A stretch of DNA of 64,000 nucleotides from Sphaerotilus microaerophilus (GTDB taxonomy: Bacteria; Pseudomonadota; Gammaproteobacteria; Burkholderiales; Burkholderiaceae_C), in assembly GCF_023734135.1 (NCBI RefSeq), contig NZ_AP025730.1, positions 3,782,001 to 3,846,000 of the forward strand, in the 5' to 3' direction. Shown in pieces: positions 23,389 to 31,865 of this stretch. Positions within the stretch are counted from its first letter, which is position 1, and every line of letters starts with the position of its first letter. The translations under genes were made by a program, and so were the position numbers. Below the pieces are notes generated by a model. That model saw only the letters and a list, made by a program, of their open reading frames with translations. It was not told the origin of the DNA and made no database searches.

Positions 23389-23750
23389 CTACCTTCTTCG
23401 CGCCGTCCAGCCGTAGGGGAAGTGAATCTTCTCGTCGCCCGTCCTGGTGAAGGACGCGTACTTGATCGTGAGTTGCGATGCCGGAACAACCATCTGTTCG
23501 GCGACGCGTTCTTCGAACTTGGCAAGACTCAGCTTCTCGAGCATCGGCGGTTCGCCAGGCTCGGGTGCATAGTCCGCGTCCTCCATCCACAGGATGCTGT
23601 CGCCTCCACAGTGGATCGACTTCAGGATGTGATTTCCCGCCTTCGCGCCGACCTTGGTGACCACATCGACAACAACCTGATGGCCCTTCCCTGGTACGGC
23701 GTAGAAGCGCCCGATGTCGGGCAGCAGACACTCGGCAACGAAGTCGAAGC
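23389..23750 (-). pseudogene. 3' fragment of the IS-disrupted caspase-like gene
   Basis: This stretch encodes the C-terminal ~120 residues of the caspase-like protein, starting in-frame at SFDFVAECLLPDIGRFYAV and ending TARRR. It is cut off from the 5' part by an IS630 element. Joining 26024-24919, one TA and 23750-23389 gives exactly 1470 nt, or 489 codons plus stop, with no frameshift. The fragment is unlikely to be translated on its own. It has no recognised domain; it may be a module specific to this family. Confidence 0.8.
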
Positions 23751-24886
23751 TAGTGCAGTGTTCCATTCTGTTTCCCACTTAACCGGGAGTTGGCGCGAAT
23801 GACCTTCTGCAAGATGTCGCGAGCGCTCTTGGTCCAGATGAACGGCTTGGGACTGGTGTTGTGATGCGCGACGTACGCCTTGATCGCCGCCTCCAGCTCG
23901 CCCACGCTGGTAAACACGCCGCGCCGCAGGCGTTCGGTGGTGATGTCGCGGAAGAAGCGCTCCACCATGTTCAGCCAAGACGCCGAGGTCGGCGTGAAGT
24001 GCATGTGGAACCTGGGGTGCTTGGCCAGCCACGCCTGCACCGCCGCGTGCTTGTGGGTGGCATAGTTGTCGGCAATCAGGTGCAGGGTCTTGCCCTTGGG
24101 CGTCTCGCGGTCGATCTGGCGCAGGAACTTCAACCACTCGGCGTGCGTGTGCCGCTGCTGGCACTGGCCAATGACCGTGCCGTCAAGCACGTTGAGCGCA
24201 GCGAACAGCGTGGTCGTGCCGTGGCGCTTGTAGTCGTGCGTCATCGTCTGCGCACGACCCTTCTTCATCGGCAGGCCCGGCTGCGTGCGGTCCAGTGCCT
24301 GCACCTGGCTCTTCTCGTCGCAGCACAGCACCAGGGCGTGCTCGGGCGGGGACATGTACAGCCCCACGATGTCTTCGAGCTTCTCGACGAACTTCGGGTC
24401 GCGCGAGACCTTGAAGCCACGCACCAGGTGCGGCTTGAGCCCATTGGCCTGCCAGTGACGCATCACCGTGCTGGGGCTGACCTGCAGCACCGCAGCCATC
24501 TTGCGCGTGCTCCAGTGCGTGGCGGCCTCGGGCTGGCTTTGCGTGGTCAGCTCCACCAGCTTGGCCACGTCCACCTTGACCGGCGGTGCCCCGCGCGGCA
24601 GGTCCCGCTCGATGCCCGCCAGTCCGGACTTGATGTAGCGCTGGCGCCAGCGACCCGCCGTGATCCGGTCGATGCCCAGCTCCTGGGCGATCTGCAGGTT
24701 CTGCAGGCCTTGCGCGGCCAGCAAAACAATGCGCGCACGCTCGGCCAGTCGAACGCTGGTCGCCTTCGAATGCGCCAGCCGGATCAACTCAGCCTCCTCC
24801 TCTTGACTCAACTCGATCGCAGGGGCAACTCGCACTTCCTGGCTCCAACTCTGTCCGTAGTAGACCATTGGAGTCGTGTTGTTCAA
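23750..24886 (-). CDS. IS630-family transposase
   Basis: A 378-residue DDE transposase. The N-terminal third is a helix-turn-helix region (IAQELGIDRITAGRWRQRY), followed by the RNase H-like catalytic core with Asp190 (LCCDEKSQ), Asp273 (IADNYATHK) and Glu309 (NMVERFFRD). This is the IS630 DDE_3 pattern. Its stop codon TAG is made at the junction: TA is the target duplication and the G comes from the interrupted caspase gene, so the IS borrows its stop from the host DNA. The length is slightly above the usual 340-360. Confidence 0.93.
   Translation of the reverse strand: MNNTTPMVYYGQSWSQEVRVAPAIELSQEEEAELIRLAHSKATSVRLAERARIVLLAAQGLQNLQIAQELGIDRITAGRWRQRYIKSGLAGIERDLPRGAPPVKVDVAKLVELTTQSQPEAATHWSTRKMAAVLQVSPSTVMRHWQANGLKPHLVRGFKVSRDPKFVEKLEDIVGLYMSPPEHALVLCCDEKSQVQALDRTQPGLPMKKGRAQTMTHDYKRHGTTTLFAALNVLDGTVIGQCQQRHTHAEWLKFLRQIDRETPKGKTLHLIADNYATHKHAAVQAWLAKHPRFHMHFTPTSASWLNMVERFFRDITTERLRRGVFTSVGELEAAIKAYVAHHNTSPKPFIWTKSARDILQKVIRANSRLSGKQNGTLH
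23753..23782. repeat. IS630 terminal inverted repeat, left
   Basis: Imperfect partner of 24887-24916. Over about 30 bp the two ends share GTG-AGTGTT--ATT and the inner CACTTAA/AACTTAA block, with mismatches between. It abuts the TA at 23751-23752. Confidence 0.8.
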
Positions 24887-24916
24887 TTAAGTTGCTTCAA
24901 CAATCAAACACTACAC
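24887..24916. repeat. IS630 terminal inverted repeat, right
   Basis: Inverse partner of 23753-23782, ending at the TA at 24917-24918. It starts immediately outside the transposase start codon, so the transposase promoter probably overlaps this repeat. Confidence 0.8.
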
Positions 24917-26024
24917 TAGACTTGAGGCGGGCATGCTGCTGCAGACGAAACAGCTCCTGAAACCTCTGTAGCTTGAACTCCTTGCGAAGGCGCGCATCGG
25001 GGTCGAAGAAGACTTCGAACAACATCCCGTCCAGTAGAGCTTTGCGCTTCTCGGGCTTCAGCCCGGCTGTGCGGGACATGAAATCGGCGATGTATGCGGT
25101 CGCGGCGTTTGAGCTTCCGCATGCTGCCTGATAGATGTTGCGACCGACGACGAAGAGCGAGTTCGATGATGCACGTCCGGCAAGGTCGGCAGTGAACTTT
25201 TCAACTGCGGGATTTTGTTGGTACCAGTCGTGGGTCTTCAACGCCCTGATGACCCCGTGGGATGTCTTCTTGTCGTCGATGACGAACAGGCTGTCGCGCA
25301 GCGACGTATCGGCGTACTCGTCGATCCGGGCGCCGAGGCTCAGGTTGAAGAAGAAGTCGCCGGCGAGAGACGTGTGCTCCCATGAAATCTGCTTGCCGCC
25401 TGTCGCAGTGCTGAGCGTGTTGCGCACTCGCTTGAACATGCTCTCGACGGAACAGTCAGGGGTCGCGAGGTGTTCAAGAAGCGCCGCCGTGTAGGCGCCA
25501 TTCCGCCCGCGGCCGTCACTGGCGATCTGACCGGGAGAAGTGGCGTAGGCAACCATCGTTCCCCTTGGCGCATAGACCGGTGCGAGGCCACGGGAACTCA
25601 TCGACCGCTCCCAGGCGCGCTCAAACGGGTTGTTGCGGCAGGCGTCAAGGATGATGATGCTTGAAGCGTTGTCGGCCTTCTCCATCACTTCGATGACCTG
25701 ATTCAGCGGCAGGGAGGAGTGCTTGGCCTCGATTTCGCCGCTTACGTCAGTATCGACGGCGGCAAGGTAGTTGCTACCGTCAACCTGCATACCGTGGCCT
25801 GCGAAGAAGAACAGCCCGACATCACTGTCCTTCAGCGCCCTCTTGAAGTCCTTGAGCGCCTGATCCATCTCCTGATGCGAGCAGTTCAGGTGTGTGGCAA
25901 CGGTGAAACCGCATTCCGTGAGCTTCGCGGCGATGTCCGTTGCATCGTTCCCGGGATTCTTCAACTTGCCGGCATCCGCGTAGTCCGCGTTGCCGATGAC
26001 GAGTGCTGTAAGGCGGCGGCTCAT
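24897..26024 (-). CDS. Caspase-like cysteine protease (peptidase C14), truncated by IS630
   Basis: The remaining frame encodes 375 residues, of which the last six (SVVFDC) come from the IS. A caspase p20-like domain fills residues 1-240: ALVIGNADYADAGKLKNPGN at the N terminus, catalytic His77 in FFFAGHGMQ and Cys129 in ILDACRNNPF. Such enzymes are often effectors of bacterial immune or cell-death systems. Its ATG at 26024 overlaps the GTPase stop (ATGA), implying coupled translation. The catalytic domain survives the insertion; the lost C-terminal 120 residues may be needed for regulation or targeting. No signal peptide is present, so it would be cytoplasmic. Confidence 0.88.
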   Translation of the reverse strand: MSRRLTALVIGNADYADAGKLKNPGNDATDIAAKLTECGFTVATHLNCSHQEMDQALKDFKRALKDSDVGLFFFAGHGMQVDGSNYLAAVDTDVSGEIEAKHSSLPLNQVIEVMEKADNASSIIILDACRNNPFERAWERSMSSRGLAPVYAPRGTMVAYATSPGQIASDGRGRNGAYTAALLEHLATPDCSVESMFKRVRNTLSTATGGKQISWEHTSLAGDFFFNLSLGARIDEYADTSLRDSLFVIDDKKTSHGVIRALKTHDWYQQNPAVEKFTADLAGRASSNSLFVVGRNIYQAACGSSNAATAYIADFMSRTAGLKPEKRKALLDGMLFEVFFDPDARLRKEFKLQRFQELFRLQQHARLKSSVVFDC

Positions 26025-28278
26025 GGCAGCATGACCCCGCCGCTTTCAACCACGGCCGCCCGAACCAGCTCGCGAACCCCGCGCATGAACTCAATCGCTG
26101 GCGCTGTGTTGACTGTGCCTGGGATCGGTGCGGCCAGTTCATAGATGCCGCGGATATCCACGGCGCGACGCGCCGCCGAACCCTTGCCTTTGTGCTCCAG
26201 GCCGCGGCGCCAGTCCGTCAGGTGTTCGTTAATCAGGCGCTGTAGCGCAAGCTGATGCAGCCTGCTGAACACGACTTGGCGGATCGGCGCGATGGCCTGC
26301 TGCGCTTCATCGGCATCGGGCGGCCGGGACCAGCCGATCGGGTTGTCGAGAAAATTCGCGATCTCTTCGATGATTCGGCCTACCAGATCTGCAACGGGCC
26401 GCAGTGAGTCGTACTCGACGCCGGTCTCGTTCGAAATCTTCCGGTTGAGCGCCTTGATGCGAGTCCAGTGCTCTGCAGGGAGCGTCGCGCCGATCGACAG
26501 GCCGAGGCGGGCCGCCCATGCCTTCTGGAAGCTGTCCGCGGCGCGTTGCACGGCAAACCCGAGCCCGGAGGCGTCGTATTGCGGCTTGGCGTCCGGCACC
26601 GGCGGCGGCTCGACCGATTTTTCGACGAAGGCGATCAGCTTATTGAGCTGCGCTTTCACTCCGGGCGGCAGCTTCGCGCTCGACCCATCGAGCGCGCCCA
26701 GCATGAAACTCTGGTCGTCGATCGTCCGCTCCATCGCGGCCACGATCGGAGCGTTCAACACTTCCTTCAGCTTGGAAAGATAGTTGTGAACGGAGGCCAG
26801 GACGTGTGCGCGCTTGTCGGCGAAGCTCGGCAAGTTCAGGCCCTTGACCTGGTCGAAGTGCGTAAAGGCGAGCAGGAGCTTGTTGTAGTTGCCGCTGGAT
26901 GCGACGGTGCGCAGGACCGACTGGGTCGCTGCCTGCACCGGCTGCTCGGCGTTGTCCACCAACAGAATGGCATCGACTTCCGAAAAGCGTCGCGTGATGT
27001 GGGTCGTCACGCTCGTTGACGAATCCGGCGTGTGGCCGAGCCCCTGGCCGTCCAGCAGCACAACCTTGGCCTGGTGGTCCGTGAAGGTCGGGAAGAGGGG
27101 GCCCATAACACGGATGCCATCGACCAGCGGCGTCAGCAGCTTGCCGAACGACGGCGCGAAGTTGCTCGAAAACCAGCGCACCTGCTTGAGGAATTCGTTC
27201 CGATCATTCGTGCTGTACGTCCACATGAGCGGCCATTTCGAGCTGGCGCTCCGGTAGGTTCGCTCGCCGCTCTGCATCGCATCGAAGCGCTGCAACGCCT
27301 CGTCGATCACGTCGTGGACGATGTCGTGAAACTGTTCGTCAGCAAACAGCTCGCTCTGGAAGATTTCAAGGGCTGCCTCGCGATCTTCGGCGTTCGCGGA
27401 GTGCGGATCGGGGAGCAGTTCCTTGCTGATCGCCTCGGCCTTCGCTGCGGCCAGCTTCGTGATGCGACCGACATAGTCCACCAACCGAGCCTGCTGAGCC
27501 TCGGCGTCGGCACTGGAAACGGCTTCGTCGCTGCTTGCCGCTGCCGTGGCCGCCTGGTCTGGCTCGCCGAAATCCCAGTCGTCAGCAGCAGGCTCGGCGG
27601 GCAGGTTCTTGCGCCATGAACCGAGCAGGTAGCTCAGCCGAAAGCGCTGGTCTGGGTGATGCAGAAAACGGTCCGCCACCTTGTCCTCGGGCAGCTTGTC
27701 CCAAACGGCGGCGCACGCGTTGAGCACGCAGTCCTCGACGTTGGCCTGAATGACGTTCTCGGAGAAGAAGGTCACCGCCGCCCGGAACTCGCCAGCGGCC
27801 GGGATCACCTCGATATCCGATACGGTGGTCTTGGCCGTCGAGGTGGACGGGAAGCGGTCCAGCTCAGGGTCCGAGCCGATCAGGTGCCGCAACAGCGAAG
27901 TCTTGCCCGCACCCGTCGTGCCGACGAACAGGGTCCGGGCGTAGCCCTCGGCCTTGCCGGGCAGGGGGATGACGTTGCTTCGGGTTTCGAAAGAGTCGGC
28001 GACGCCGGCCTGGATGCCGTCATAGAACGCATCGACGATACGCTGGTCAAAAATCTGGAGCGCCTCCTGATGCTTCGCCGCCGTCCACCAGATTTCATCC
28101 TGAAGTAGCTCGTTCATCTGGGCTACGAGGGCCTCGGCCTTGACTTTGTCATCGGTGCCCAGGCCGCGCCGCATTTTCAGACCGGACTTCCCCTTTGAAT
28201 CGAGCTTCAGGGGATGCCGGAAGCTGATACTGAAACCCGGCCGGCCGGGAGTGGTCGAGAGAGAGGCGGTGTAGGCCA
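26021..28278 (-). CDS. Large P-loop GTPase (dynamin/GIMAP-like fold), partner of the caspase
   Basis: A 752-residue protein. The P-loop GTTGAGKT is at residues 120-127. A threonine-rich switch (STSTAKTT) follows near 142, a G3-like LLDGQG appears mid-protein and a THFD motif (G4-like) later. Long helical and charged regions occupy the rest, including a Glu/Ala-rich linker near 270-300. The first 65 residues (FRHPLKLDSKGKSGLKMRRG) resemble the arm DNA-binding segment of tyrosine recombinases. The start is ATG 28278, with AAGGAG about 10 bp upstream. I infer that it senses a trigger and controls the caspase, but this has no direct proof here. Confidence 0.8.
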
Positions 28279-28373
28279 TAAGCCTGTGCTCCTTGTTGTT
28301 CCATGTTGTACCGAAGTACACTCTAGGCACGATCTGCCCCGCCGTCAAGTAATTTGGAACAACGCGGAACAAC
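28279..28373 (-). promoter_or_regulatory. Promoter and repeated GTTGTTCC sites of the GTPase-caspase operon
   Basis: Reading toward the GTPase gene, TTGACG (about 28343-28348) and TAGAGT (about 28320-28325) are separated by 17 bp, a good sigma-70 match. GTTGTTCC occurs twice just upstream of the -35 (28356-28363 and 28366-28373, 10 bp apart) and once in inverse downstream of the -10 (about 28294-28301). This arrangement suggests a regulator binding on both sides of the promoter. No regulator gene adjoins it. Confidence 0.6.
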
Positions 28374-28489: not shown

Positions 28490-28610
28490 CTGCCGCTGCC
28501 GGTGGTCGCTGGCCAGACGGCACGCGGCTCGCACGTCATCGACGCCTCAGGCATCTATACGTAGTTCTTGACCGGGCGTGCACTGGCGGCTCCACAACCT
28601 GGAGACTGCA

Positions 28611-29888
28611 ATGCCTTCCAAGCCTCGTTCTCGCCTCGATCCTTCCAGCCGCACTCGCGGCTGTGCACAGCTGGATCGCCACATCCCGGCCTACCGCCAT
28701 TACCTCGCGGATCGCGGCAATGCCGCCGGCTACGCGCGCAGCTGCGAAGCCGCCGTGGCGCATCTGTCGCTGTGGATGAAGGGCGCCAAGAAGCGCCTGG
28801 CCGACGTCGACGAGGGGCTCGTTGCCGAGTTCGTCGATCACCACCTTCCCGGCTGTCATTGCCCGACCAGTGCCCGCCATCCGAGCAGCGTGCGGGCCGC
28901 GTTGGGCCATCTGCTCGTCGTCCTGCGTGCCGCCGGCGCCATCGCACCCCAGCCGCTGGACATGACCGAGGTGGGTCAGGAGCTGCGCCGCTACGACCAG
29001 TACATGCAGCAGGTGCGGGGGCTTGCCCCGAACACGCGCAATGGAGCGCTGCGCCTCGTCGAAGCGCTGCTGCGCCAGCACTTCGGCAACGACGCCATCC
29101 GCTTCGAGGTCATCACGCCGGAGCGCGTGCGCCGCTTCTTCGCAGCGCAGGCCAAGAACTACAAGGCGCCGACAAGCCTGAGCACCGTGGTGGCGGCGCT
29201 GCGCGGCTACTTCCGCTGGCGTGCGACGCTGGGTGACCGCACACACGCGCTGGTTGGTGCGCTGGCGTATCCGGCGAACTGGCAATTGGCATCGCTGCCC
29301 AAGTCGCTGGAGCCGGCAGAGGTCGAGCTTCTCGAGGCCGCCCTTGGCCAGAGCGGGCCCTCGATGCTGCGTGCCGATGCGATGGTGCGCTGCATGCTCG
29401 ACCTGGGCCTGCGCAGCGGCGAGGTTGCACGCCTGAGCATGGACGACATCGACTGGGACGCCGGCACGATTACCTTGCGTCGCACGAAGGGTCGACGGGA
29501 GGACGTGATGCCGCTGCCCGAAGCCACCGGGCAGGCGATCGCCGCGTACCTGCACAGGGAGCGACCCAAGACCCAGCACCGCATGATCTTCGCCCGCCAC
29601 ATGACGCCACGCGAGCGACCGATCGGGCCGGACCTCGTGCGCAAAACCATCCGCCAAGCGTACGCCCGTGCCGGACTGCCGTACACGCGCTCGCATCTGC
29701 TGCGCCACACGATGGCGGGCCGCCTGCTGGCCGGCGGGGCCTCGCTCAAGGAGGTGGCTGACGTGCTGCGCCACCGTTCGCTGAACACGACGCTGATCTA
29801 CGCCAAGCTCGACAGCGGCAGCCTGGTCGAAGTGGCCCTGCCATGGCCTGGCATCCCTGCGGTTGCCACGACCGGGAGGGCATCATGA
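28611..29888 (+). CDS. Tyrosine recombinase, first of the RIT trio
   Basis: A 425-residue tyrosine recombinase. An N-terminal core-binding domain spans about residues 20-220, and the catalytic domain follows with Arg in LDLGLRSGEVARL, the HLLRHT box and the RHRSLNTTLIYAKLD segment carrying the nucleophilic Tyr. ATG 28611 (MPSKPRSRLD) has GGAG 7 bp upstream; an in-frame ATG at 28578 lacks such a site. Its stop overlaps the start of the next recombinase (ATGA), implying coupled translation. In RIT elements the three proteins are thought to act together. Confidence 0.88.
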   Translation: MPSKPRSRLDPSSRTRGCAQLDRHIPAYRHYLADRGNAAGYARSCEAAVAHLSLWMKGAKKRLADVDEGLVAEFVDHHLPGCHCPTSARHPSSVRAALGHLLVVLRAAGAIAPQPLDMTEVGQELRRYDQYMQQVRGLAPNTRNGALRLVEALLRQHFGNDAIRFEVITPERVRRFFAAQAKNYKAPTSLSTVVAALRGYFRWRATLGDRTHALVGALAYPANWQLASLPKSLEPAEVELLEAALGQSGPSMLRADAMVRCMLDLGLRSGEVARLSMDDIDWDAGTITLRRTKGRREDVMPLPEATGQAIAAYLHRERPKTQHRMIFARHMTPRERPIGPDLVRKTIRQAYARAGLPYTRSHLLRHTMAGRLLAGGASLKEVADVLRHRSLNTTLIYAKLDSGSLVEVALPWPGIPAVATTGRAS

Positions 29889-30850
29889 CCATCGGCCTGA
29901 CCGCGCTCGTTGAGCGCTACCTCATCGAACGCCGCACCCTGGGCTTCCAGTTGAAGTCGCCGGCCTACAGCCTGCGCAGCCTGGCCGAGTACGTCCGGCG
30001 CACGCGCCACCGGGGACCTCTGACGCTGGAGGTCATGGCCGAGTGGGCGCGTCTGGACTCGCACGCCAGCGTCGATCCCCGGACATGGGCCAGGCGACTG
30101 AAGAATTTGCGCTCCTTCGCACGATGGATGCAGCAGTTCGAACCAGCCACTGAGGTGCCCGACGACACGATCTTCGGTCGGTTGCCCGAGCGCCAGGCGC
30201 CGCACATCTACAGCCCCGAGGAGGTGCAGCAGTTGCTGGCTGCCGCGCGCGAACTCGGCCCCAGCCCCGGCCTGCGCGGACTGGTCTACGAGACGCTGTT
30301 CGGCTTGATCGCCAGTTGCGGCCTGCGCCTGTCCGAGGCGCTGTCGCTGACTGTCGCCGACGTCGATCTGCGCCGCGGTGTGCTGACCATCCGCCGCACC
30401 AAGTTCGCCAAGTCGCGCCAGGTGCCGCTGCATCCGAGCACGGCCAAGGCCCTGGGTCGCTACCGCTGGACGCGGGACGTGGCCGGCGCGTCACGCGACG
30501 ACGACGCGCCGTTCTCCATCGGCACCCGCGGCCGCCTGTTCGGCAAGCCGATCAGCGGGCACCAGGTGGAGCGCGTCTTCGCCACGCTGCGCAGTGAACT
30601 GGGCTGGATCAACCGCGGCACCCACCACGCGCCGCGGATCCACGACCTGCGGCATACCTTCGTGGTCAGGCGCATCCTGCTGTGGCAACAGCACGGCATC
30701 GACGTGGACGAGGCGATGCTCGCGCTGTCGACCTACGTCGGGCACGCGATGGTCACCAACACCTACTGGTACCTGCAGGCGGTGCCGGAGTTGATGGCGG
30801 TGGCGGCGAAGCGCTTCGAGGCGTGCATGCCGGAGTTCAGCCATGTCTGA
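29885..30850 (+). CDS. Tyrosine recombinase, second of the RIT trio
   Basis: A 321-residue tyrosine recombinase. The catalytic boxes are IASCGLRLSEALSL (Arg), IHDLRHTFVVRR (His-x-x-Arg) and YVGHAMVTNTYWYLQ (His and Tyr). ATG 29885 overlaps the previous stop codon by 4 bp; the upstream in-frame ATG at 29843 would lie inside the preceding gene and is unlikely. It is the smallest of the three, with a shortened N-terminal domain starting MTIGLTALVERYLIERRTLG. Confidence 0.88.
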   Translation: MTIGLTALVERYLIERRTLGFQLKSPAYSLRSLAEYVRRTRHRGPLTLEVMAEWARLDSHASVDPRTWARRLKNLRSFARWMQQFEPATEVPDDTIFGRLPERQAPHIYSPEEVQQLLAAARELGPSPGLRGLVYETLFGLIASCGLRLSEALSLTVADVDLRRGVLTIRRTKFAKSRQVPLHPSTAKALGRYRWTRDVAGASRDDDAPFSIGTRGRLFGKPISGHQVERVFATLRSELGWINRGTHHAPRIHDLRHTFVVRRILLWQQHGIDVDEAMLALSTYVGHAMVTNTYWYLQAVPELMAVAAKRFEACMPEFSHV

Positions 30851-31865
30851 GGCCCGTCATCACCGCAAGGCAGACCCTCCAGGCTTCCCGGCACTGGTGC
30901 AGCAGTTCTTCACCGAGTACCTGGTCGCGCAGCGTGCGCTCAGCCCGCGGACGGTGGCCAGCTACCGCGACGCAATGACGCTGTTCCTCGCGTATGCGAC
31001 CGACCACTTGCGCAAGACGCCGATGGCCCTGCAACTGACGGACATCACGCCGGAGTTGGTTCTCAAGTTCCTGGCCCACCTGGAACGCGAGCGGCACAAC
31101 TCGGTGCGCAGCCGTAACCTGCGGCTGACGGCGCTGCGGGCGTTCCTAAAGTTCGCCGGCCGCCGCGACGTGAGCGCGCTGCACACCGTCGAGCAGGTGA
31201 TGGCCGTGCCGATGAAGCGCTTCGAGCGGCCACTGCTCGGTCACCTGACGCGGCCCGAGATGATCGCCGTGCTGGGGCAACCTGGCAGCGACTGGACCTC
31301 GCAGCGCGACCATCTGTTGCTCAGCCTGCTCTACAACACCGGCGCACGGGTGTCGGAGATCGTCGGGGTGCGCGTCGTCGACGTGGTGCTGGGCGGTGCG
31401 GCATGCGTCCACCTGCATGGCAAGGGACGCAAGGACCGCTCGGTGCCGCTGTGGCAGTCGACCGCAGCGGCCGTGCGAGCGTGGTTGCATGCGAACCCCG
31501 AACTGCGCGGCTCGGCGGCGTTGCTGCCCAATCGATCTGGCCACCCGATGACACGGTGCAATGTGGCGCAGCGGCTGGCCCTCGCGGTCGACCGTGCTGC
31601 CGCCGAGCAGCCGAGCCTGAAGACCAAGCGCGTCTCGCCGCACAGCCTGAGGCACACGACCGCCATGCACCTGCTGCAAAGCGGCGTACCCTTCAACATC
31701 ATCGCCCTGTGGCTCGGCCATGAGAGCACGAACACGACGCACCGCTACGTTGAGGCCAACCTGGAGATGAAGGAGAAGGCGCTCGCGCGTCTGGAGGCGC
31801 CGGACATCAAGCTACAGCGCTTCAAGGCCAGCGATGACCTGATGAAGTTCCTGCGGAGCCTGTGA
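30843..31865 (+). CDS. Tyrosine recombinase, third of the RIT trio
   Basis: A 340-residue tyrosine recombinase of XerC/D-like layout. The core-binding domain (FFTEYLVAQRALSPRTVASY) is followed by YNTGARVSEIVGV (Arg), SPHSLRHTTAMHLL (His-x-x-Arg) and WLGHESTNTTHRYVEA (His, Tyr). It overlaps the second recombinase by 8 bp. The C-terminal helix rich in Lys and Glu resembles those that make contacts between recombinase subunits. Confidence 0.88.
   Translation: MSEARHHRKADPPGFPALVQQFFTEYLVAQRALSPRTVASYRDAMTLFLAYATDHLRKTPMALQLTDITPELVLKFLAHLERERHNSVRSRNLRLTALRAFLKFAGRRDVSALHTVEQVMAVPMKRFERPLLGHLTRPEMIAVLGQPGSDWTSQRDHLLLSLLYNTGARVSEIVGVRVVDVVLGGAACVHLHGKGRKDRSVPLWQSTAAAVRAWLHANPELRGSAALLPNRSGHPMTRCNVAQRLALAVDRAAAEQPSLKTKRVSPHSLRHTTAMHLLQSGVPFNIIALWLGHESTNTTHRYVEANLEMKEKALARLEAPDIKLQRFKASDDLMKFLRSL

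Follow-up and report, generated by a model that had tools for sequence, protein, structure and literature searches.

P1-type ParA is a P-loop NTPase that carries an N-terminal DNA-binding head and represses its own promoter, and plasmid partition loci combine phased repeats around a promoter with an NTPase headed in this way. Tandem sites spaced at about 10-bp phase are also found at the arms bound by lambda integrase. Among bacterial conflict systems are DO-GTPase-GAP1 systems, in which a GTPase switch with variable partners is proposed for immunity (PMC7159879), and EACC1-caspase systems, a two-gene set with the caspase as its 3' gene (PMC7159879, PMC8195603). Here we describe a P-loop GTPase-like gene, adjoined by a caspase-fold gene, in a 64,000-nucleotide stretch of Sphaerotilus microaerophilus (contig NZ_AP025730.1, positions 3,782,001 to 3,846,000 of the forward strand; hereafter the window). 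Sequence comparison establishes a predicted operator at the GTPase promoter, its conservation and near-exclusive placement there, its co-variation with an N-terminal head of the protein, the rarity of the GTPase-caspase pair and the break in the caspase gene.

The locus shares features with each of these systems and differs from each. Like P1-type ParA, the protein is a P-loop NTPase with an N-terminal head proposed to repress its own promoter; unlike ParA, its head appears integrase-like, it has no conserved partner gene, most of its loci lie off plasmids, and its P-loop, GTTGAGKT, lacks the extra lysine of the deviant Walker A motif of type I ParA. As with the arm-binding domain of lambda-type integrases, an N-terminal domain is paired with tandem sites at about 10-bp phase, but the GTPase has no recombinase catalytic domain and its sites flank a promoter. 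DO-GTPase-GAP1 proteins are described with zinc ribbons or membrane segments (PMC7159879), whereas the present protein has a proposed integrase-like head and an operator; no constant downstream gene stood out among the GTPase loci listed, a comparison made without a GAP1 model search. The window pair resembles EACC1-caspase systems in being two genes with the caspase 3', and differs in its 5' gene, a GTPase that no NCBIfam model matches, no EACC1 model having been run by name. The EACC1-associated caspase model, NF047832, scores the window caspase at 74.8 bits, below its cut-off of 140.

A promoter bracketed by paired boxes

The GTPase gene and the elements at its promoter are as follows.

26021..28279, minus strand: GTPase-like gene, an open reading frame (ORF) of 752 residues with an N-terminal domain at residues 1-95, P-loop at 120-127, DGQG at 410-413 and THFD at 473-476
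28356..28373, plus strand: upstream box pair, GGAACAACGCGGAACAAC on the plus strand and GTTGTTCC-GC-GTTGTTCC along the gene, 0 mismatches, just upstream of the -35 hexamer
28343..28348, minus strand: -35 hexamer TTGACG, read from the sequence, with the position of TTGAC conserved
28320..28325, minus strand: predicted -10 hexamer TAGAGT, at 17-bp spacing
28295..28312, minus strand: downstream box pair GGTACAACATGGAACAAC, 0 mismatches to GGWACAACNNGGWACAAC, about the putative transcription start
28285..28302, minus strand: further match, offset by one unit, made up of GGAACAAC and a degenerate third repeat that keeps the 10-bp phase, 3 mismatches, over the ribosome-binding region
27995..28279, minus strand: coding region of the N-terminal domain, residues 1-95, the proposed DNA-binding head by its DUF6538 likeness and its co-variation with the boxes

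Many GTPase loci share one upstream block: GTTGTTCCnnGTTGTTCC, about 8 bp, TTGAC, then GGAACAACnnGGAACAAC and the start codon. Judged by sequence, the two box pairs, inverted to each other and flanking the TTGAC promoter, are an operator conserved with the GTPase gene. Both standard boxes occur at no more than 3 mismatches of 16 each in 47 of 65 distinct upstream regions, and in 44 of these 47 TTGAC follows the upstream box at a distance of 6-9 bp; none of 4000 random windows held both boxes at up to 4 mismatches. The window itself holds four box matches at 3 or fewer mismatches, against a mean of 0.38 in 100 shuffles of it. Four half-site classes with two spacings, chosen after the loci had been viewed, describe 60 of 63 loci at no more than 8 mismatches in 32, as against 0 of 3000 random windows (best 9). 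This set of 63 excludes headless copies and six broken or cut loci (L019, L030, L032, L033, L125 and L126), and many of the Rhodobacterales rows among the loci are near-copies of one another.

The boxes are nearly exclusive to the GTPase promoter. Both exact boxes in the 6.06-Mb genome of the window lie there (2 of 2), as do all 16 exact boxes in 18 other GTPase genomes, which makes 18 of 18 across the 19. Allowing one mismatch in the 18 genomes, 31 of 36 boxes are at the GTPase promoter, and a reversed control pattern gives 7 matches compared with those 36; one genome (G869) has no box at this threshold. At up to 2 mismatches in the window's genome the control pattern gives 5 matches and the box 3. 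A form of the box with 11-bp phasing behaves alike, 11 of its 12 exact matches in 9 genomes falling at GTPase promoters. Relatives of the caspase that stand alone (7 loci) have no boxes, their best matches carrying 6-8 mismatches.

DNA similarity between the window and locus L114 begins where the upstream box ends on its outer side (28373) and runs to the GTPase stop. The boxes of a Methanoperedens bin (L037) stand as direct repeats on either side of TTTAAATA, which has the look of an archaeal TATA box, as though the space between them had received an archaeal promoter. At two loci, L011 (about -228) and L019 (about -216), a box is followed by what read as the opening codons of another GTPase copy, a truncated one.

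Head and boxes vary together

The first 95 residues of the protein are suggestive of an integrase-like DNA-binding domain, a likeness to DUF6538 that falls short of proof. Alignment of the head with DUF6538 by hhalign gave 59.9% (E 8.7e-5 for the single comparison), and 27 control slices taken from elsewhere in these proteins gave 2.34% or less. Of 15 places in 11 genomes where DUF6538 was checked, 10 have a Phage_integrase domain in the same frame, which scores below its cut-off in two of them; a Pfam scan found no Phage_integrase catalytic domain in the GTPase.

Comparison of the 63 loci indicates that both the phasing and the sequence of the boxes follow the N-terminal domain. A 10-residue loop after the motif FRHP accompanies 11-bp phasing in 7 of 7 cases, and shorter loops accompany 10-bp phasing in all 52 that could be parsed (L034 was not, and the search pattern returned too short a loop for L018 and L023). 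Likewise, the motif QNPGR is found with GGAACATC half-sites in 4 of 4 loci and is absent from the other 59. On a tree built from the rest of the protein, the QNPGR/GGAACATC combination falls in two separate places, at L111 and in the group of L118, L122 and L123; these two origins may be either convergence or joint transfer of head and operator. Absence of the head goes with absence of the boxes: four of five headless copies on Rhodococcus plasmids, those that were read, have none in 400 bp upstream (6-7 mismatches).

A widespread family without a name

The GTPase belongs to a family that has no name and reaches several phyla. Among 8000 candidates scored, 2968 homologues had E values of 1e-3 or below, with relatives in Pseudomonadota, cyanobacteria, Acidobacteriota, Planctomycetota, Nitrospirota, a Bacillus bin and the Methanoperedens bin; many are metagenome bins. 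Relatives occur in 11 of 72,556 plasmid records and in 15 viral contigs, and the Rhodococcus plasmid relatives lack the first 90 or so residues. Three motifs are conserved across 63 sequences: the P-loop GTTGAGKT, DGQG and THFD.

Profile libraries do not name the window protein. Pfam gave no match above cut-off (MMR_HSR1 scored 20.3 bits, cut-off 21.9), NCBIfam gave no match, and PADLOC gave just a 22-residue P-loop match at E 0.006. A profile search of the Protein Data Bank (PDB) returned P-loop matches only, the best at E 0.019; further such searches added one match at E 0.038, single stretches being non-significant. PHROGs matched terminase P-loops in up to 16 of 63 members and nothing in the window protein. 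Among the matches listed in searches of the open-licence literature, no paper was recognised as dealing with this GTPase or with its operator; there was nothing on DUF6538, on a GTPase combined with arm-binding or on an autoregulated anti-phage GTPase, and, using the letters of the boxes, nothing on this operator among the matches listed.

A rare and broken caspase partner

In the window, the GTPase-like ORF (26021-28279) is followed on the minus strand by the caspase-fold gene, which starts at 26024; the stop of the one and the start of the other overlap in the letters ATGA. The initial annotation had reported a 752-residue P-loop GTPase and a caspase-fold protease overlapping by ATGA, and the lack of known sensor repeats in the GTPase. 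The ORF list and the sequence bear out both ORFs, their strand and their overlap, and place the P-loop GTTGAGKT at residues 120-127; in the Pfam scan, no match in the GTPase rises above cut-off. The span it gave, 24897..28278, stops one base short of the GTPase start at 28279. The caspase region has three segments.

24897..26024, minus strand: caspase gene, N-terminal part, as an ORF that continues into IS630 sequence, with family sequence ending near 24906-24919
23750..24919, minus strand: IS630 element inside the caspase gene, with the transposase ORF at 23750-24886 and CTAG at 23750-23753 and 24916-24919
23389..23754, minus strand: severed C-terminal caspase piece with its stop, 93% identical to residues 369-489 of the caspase sequence P0121

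The caspase fold is clear (Peptidase_C14, PF00656, E 8.7e-41), and His77 and Cys129 do not vary across 34 aligned sequences, the window copy among them. The ORF has 375 residues, whereas most of its 120 best relatives have 485-511. A tblastn search with P0121 aligns its residues 1-373 to 26024-24906 and its residues 369-489 to 23754-23392, with an IS630 transposase (NF033545 transpos_IS630, 282.6 bits) between them. The last residues of the window ORF are IS630 sequence, and the 121 C-terminal residues, about a quarter of the protein, lie severed beyond the insertion at 23392-23754. An intact caspase is rejected on these grounds: the catalytic residues that the initial annotation called intact are indeed present, and the gene as a whole is split by IS630 at the expense of residues 369-489 (P0121 numbering). 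That split had gone unnoticed, as had the boxes flanking the GTPase promoter (28295-28312, 28356-28373). Since the caspase is broken, only the GTPase half could work in the window. A second caspase-domain gene elsewhere in the genome (G000 C1:2076199-2076873) is 50% identical over P0121 residues 6-232.

The pair is present here and rare elsewhere, and we find no conserved system. After removal of duplicates, near-copies and the window itself (22 fetched loci), 72 other GTPase loci remained, 55 of them with at least 1.5 kb after the gene. A caspase follows the GTPase in one of the 55, in Variovorax WDL1 (L003), where the genes again overlap by 4 bases. The L003 GTPase is frameshifted near residue 632 (near L003 position 6865), so both fetched pairs are damaged, one in each gene. 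In the 8 kb fetched to each side of a GTPase 95% identical to that of the window (G585), there is no caspase. Whole-genome searches with the caspase in 12 other GTPase genomes gave no full-length relative; partial matches in five reach no further than residue 239 of 489. Among 399 genomes of the window's family, the GTPase occurs in 6 and a full-length caspase in 3, with both only in the window's own; among 399 drawn from its order, the GTPase occurs in 8. Conversely, no GTPase lies near any of 10 full-length caspase relatives (L102-L109, L217 and L218), one of which, L108, is in two pieces.

A conserved GTPase-caspase module is rejected by these counts: 1 of 55 GTPase loci, 0 of 12 genomes, 0 of 10 caspase loci, and family overlap confined to the window's genome. 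The initial annotation had proposed a GTPase-caspase defence module. Its overlapping pair exists and, as it said, answers to no named system, NCBIfam and PADLOC giving none (PADLOC matched the caspase to a generic caspase model, E 1.8e-12), but conserved linkage of the two genes elsewhere is largely missing. An ATGA-coupled GTPase-caspase pair in one genome need not mean a conserved suicide system. In most genomes seen, the GTPase seems to work without this caspase.

The caspase has contexts of its own. A full-length relative lies directly upstream of GajA and GajB (Gabija) on a viral contig, with a DNA methyltransferase nearby (L102:6001-11436), and another stands beside qatA on an Agrobacterium plasmid. 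Full-length relatives occur in 13 plasmid records, 9 of them Edwardsiella; gene context was examined in 5 of the 13. Other coupled partners are possible: at two further loci the gene that shares 4 bases with the GTPase stop encodes a SEC-C motif protein (L120:10220-11689) or a DUF4238 protein (L122:6943-7941).

Defence genes and prophages around the GTPase

A defence role for the GTPase is plausible from its neighbourhood of restriction and defence genes and from a prophage copy. The test set comprised 109 of 215 neighbouring ORFs from 30 loci, the L003 caspase among them, and the control set 109 of the 110 ORFs drawn from 207 in 20 stretches of 6 genomes, the last one drawn being left out. 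At E values of 1e-10 or below, PADLOC models matched 239 times near the GTPase and 42 times in the control, counting overlapping models and not genes. Each type I restriction subunit model was matched by 3 of the 109 neighbours, DpdF by 2 and PsyrT by 2; the control matches shown were mainly to reverse-transcriptase models and mad3 (4 members). In an Antarctobacter prophage (L028), the GTPase lies in opposite orientation, adjoining a DUF6441 gene and near a gene for a major capsid protein E. GTPase genes in opposite orientation among phage genes were seen at five Rhodobacterales loci in all (L024, L026, L028, L029 and L030).

A model and its alternatives

We propose a single-gene element as the core: a P-loop GTPase-like protein, headed by an integrase-arm-like domain, that moves with its own operator. 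The head would bind both pairs of 10-bp-phased half-sites and hold down the promoter between them. A change caused by infection, in nucleotide state or through a phage factor, would free the protein from the promoter, and the freed GTPase would act against the invader. A few Burkholderiales would use this promoter to drive a translationally coupled caspase as well, a separately mobile defence gene added as an executioner. We lean slightly towards this autoregulated, probably immune GTPase with an integrase-like DNA-binding head, of which binding, repression, defence, GTP use and caspase activation are what we infer. Its extension to a class of self-gated immune GTPases is more tentative. In such a class, an integrase-derived head would lock the protein on its own promoter, making switch and transcription factor one molecule; it would have spread across phyla with its operator, box sequence and helical phase being re-tuned with the head, and would occasionally capture an executioner such as a caspase. 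If true, the design would be compact, one protein serving as sensor, repressor and effector, and directly testable, given a known operator, a specificity that varies with identifiable residues and the swaps that natural variants already provide.

Several observations weigh against this model. Two loci with a head, L036 and L112, have no recognised boxes in 170 bp, and a third, L011, has none in that span and its exact box only at -228. Pfam DUF6538 matches 7 of 23 N-terminal domains, all under cut-off (best E 0.0063), and a PDB profile search with the head gave no match. The half-site classes were drawn up with the loci in view, and the tree built without the head gives the 11-bp form a single origin. 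No relative of the GTPase appears in 50,697 phage genome records. The motifs of the family (P-loop, DGQG, THFD) point to a GTPase, and we infer GTP use no more firmly than that because ATPase models match as many members (AAA_22 and MMR_HSR1 each 62 of 63); the TKxD motif, moreover, reads THFD in this family.

Two alternatives concern the pair. That the two are independent defence genes, brought side by side under a common promoter by island shuffling and functionally uncoupled, is a serious possibility, if short of even. It fits a GTPase found alone near restriction genes and in prophages and a caspase found alone beside GajA/GajB and qatA, but an overlap of 4 bases in two genomes goes beyond adjacency, bringing the caspase under the operator of the GTPase. 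The converse, that the GTPase is a dedicated sensor activating the caspase and the pair a functional unit, as the initial annotation had it, we consider unlikely. The overlaps in the window and in Variovorax speak for it, and shared longest contig sizes between large-database clusters (12311 for P0005 and P0124, 60088 for P0027 and P0135) suggest, without proving, more linked copies. Set against these are the linkage counts (1 of 55, 0 of 12 and 0 of 10), the closely related G585 GTPase with no adjoining caspase despite 95% identity, and the damage to both fetched pairs.

Two further alternatives concern the boxes. They could be centromere-like, with the protein a partition or DNA-bridging NTPase that serves segregation or stabilisation, as in autoregulated plasmid partition. 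Promoter-flanking phased repeats and a headed NTPase do resemble partition loci, and relatives occur on plasmids; yet the 11 of 72,556 plasmid records are few, most loci are single genes on chromosomes or unassigned contigs, copies without head and boxes exist, and insertion in a prophage is unlike a partition locus, which leaves this reading improbable. Still less probable is that the boxes are recombination or attachment sites through which the gene moves. The integrase-like head would suit that role, as would the window/L114 similarity that begins at 28373 and ends at the GTPase stop, but the protein has no catalytic recombinase domain, and the boxes are fixed around the TTGAC promoter (44 of 47), with none at the far end of the gene.

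Surroundings of the pair

In the window, the G+C content of the pair is 0.59-0.63, compared with 0.68-0.70 in sampled flanks. Recombinases had been noted nearby by the initial annotation, and Pfam identifies three consecutive tyrosine recombinase genes adjoining the pair on the plus strand (28578-31865), a triplet that we take to be probably a recombinase-in-trio element.

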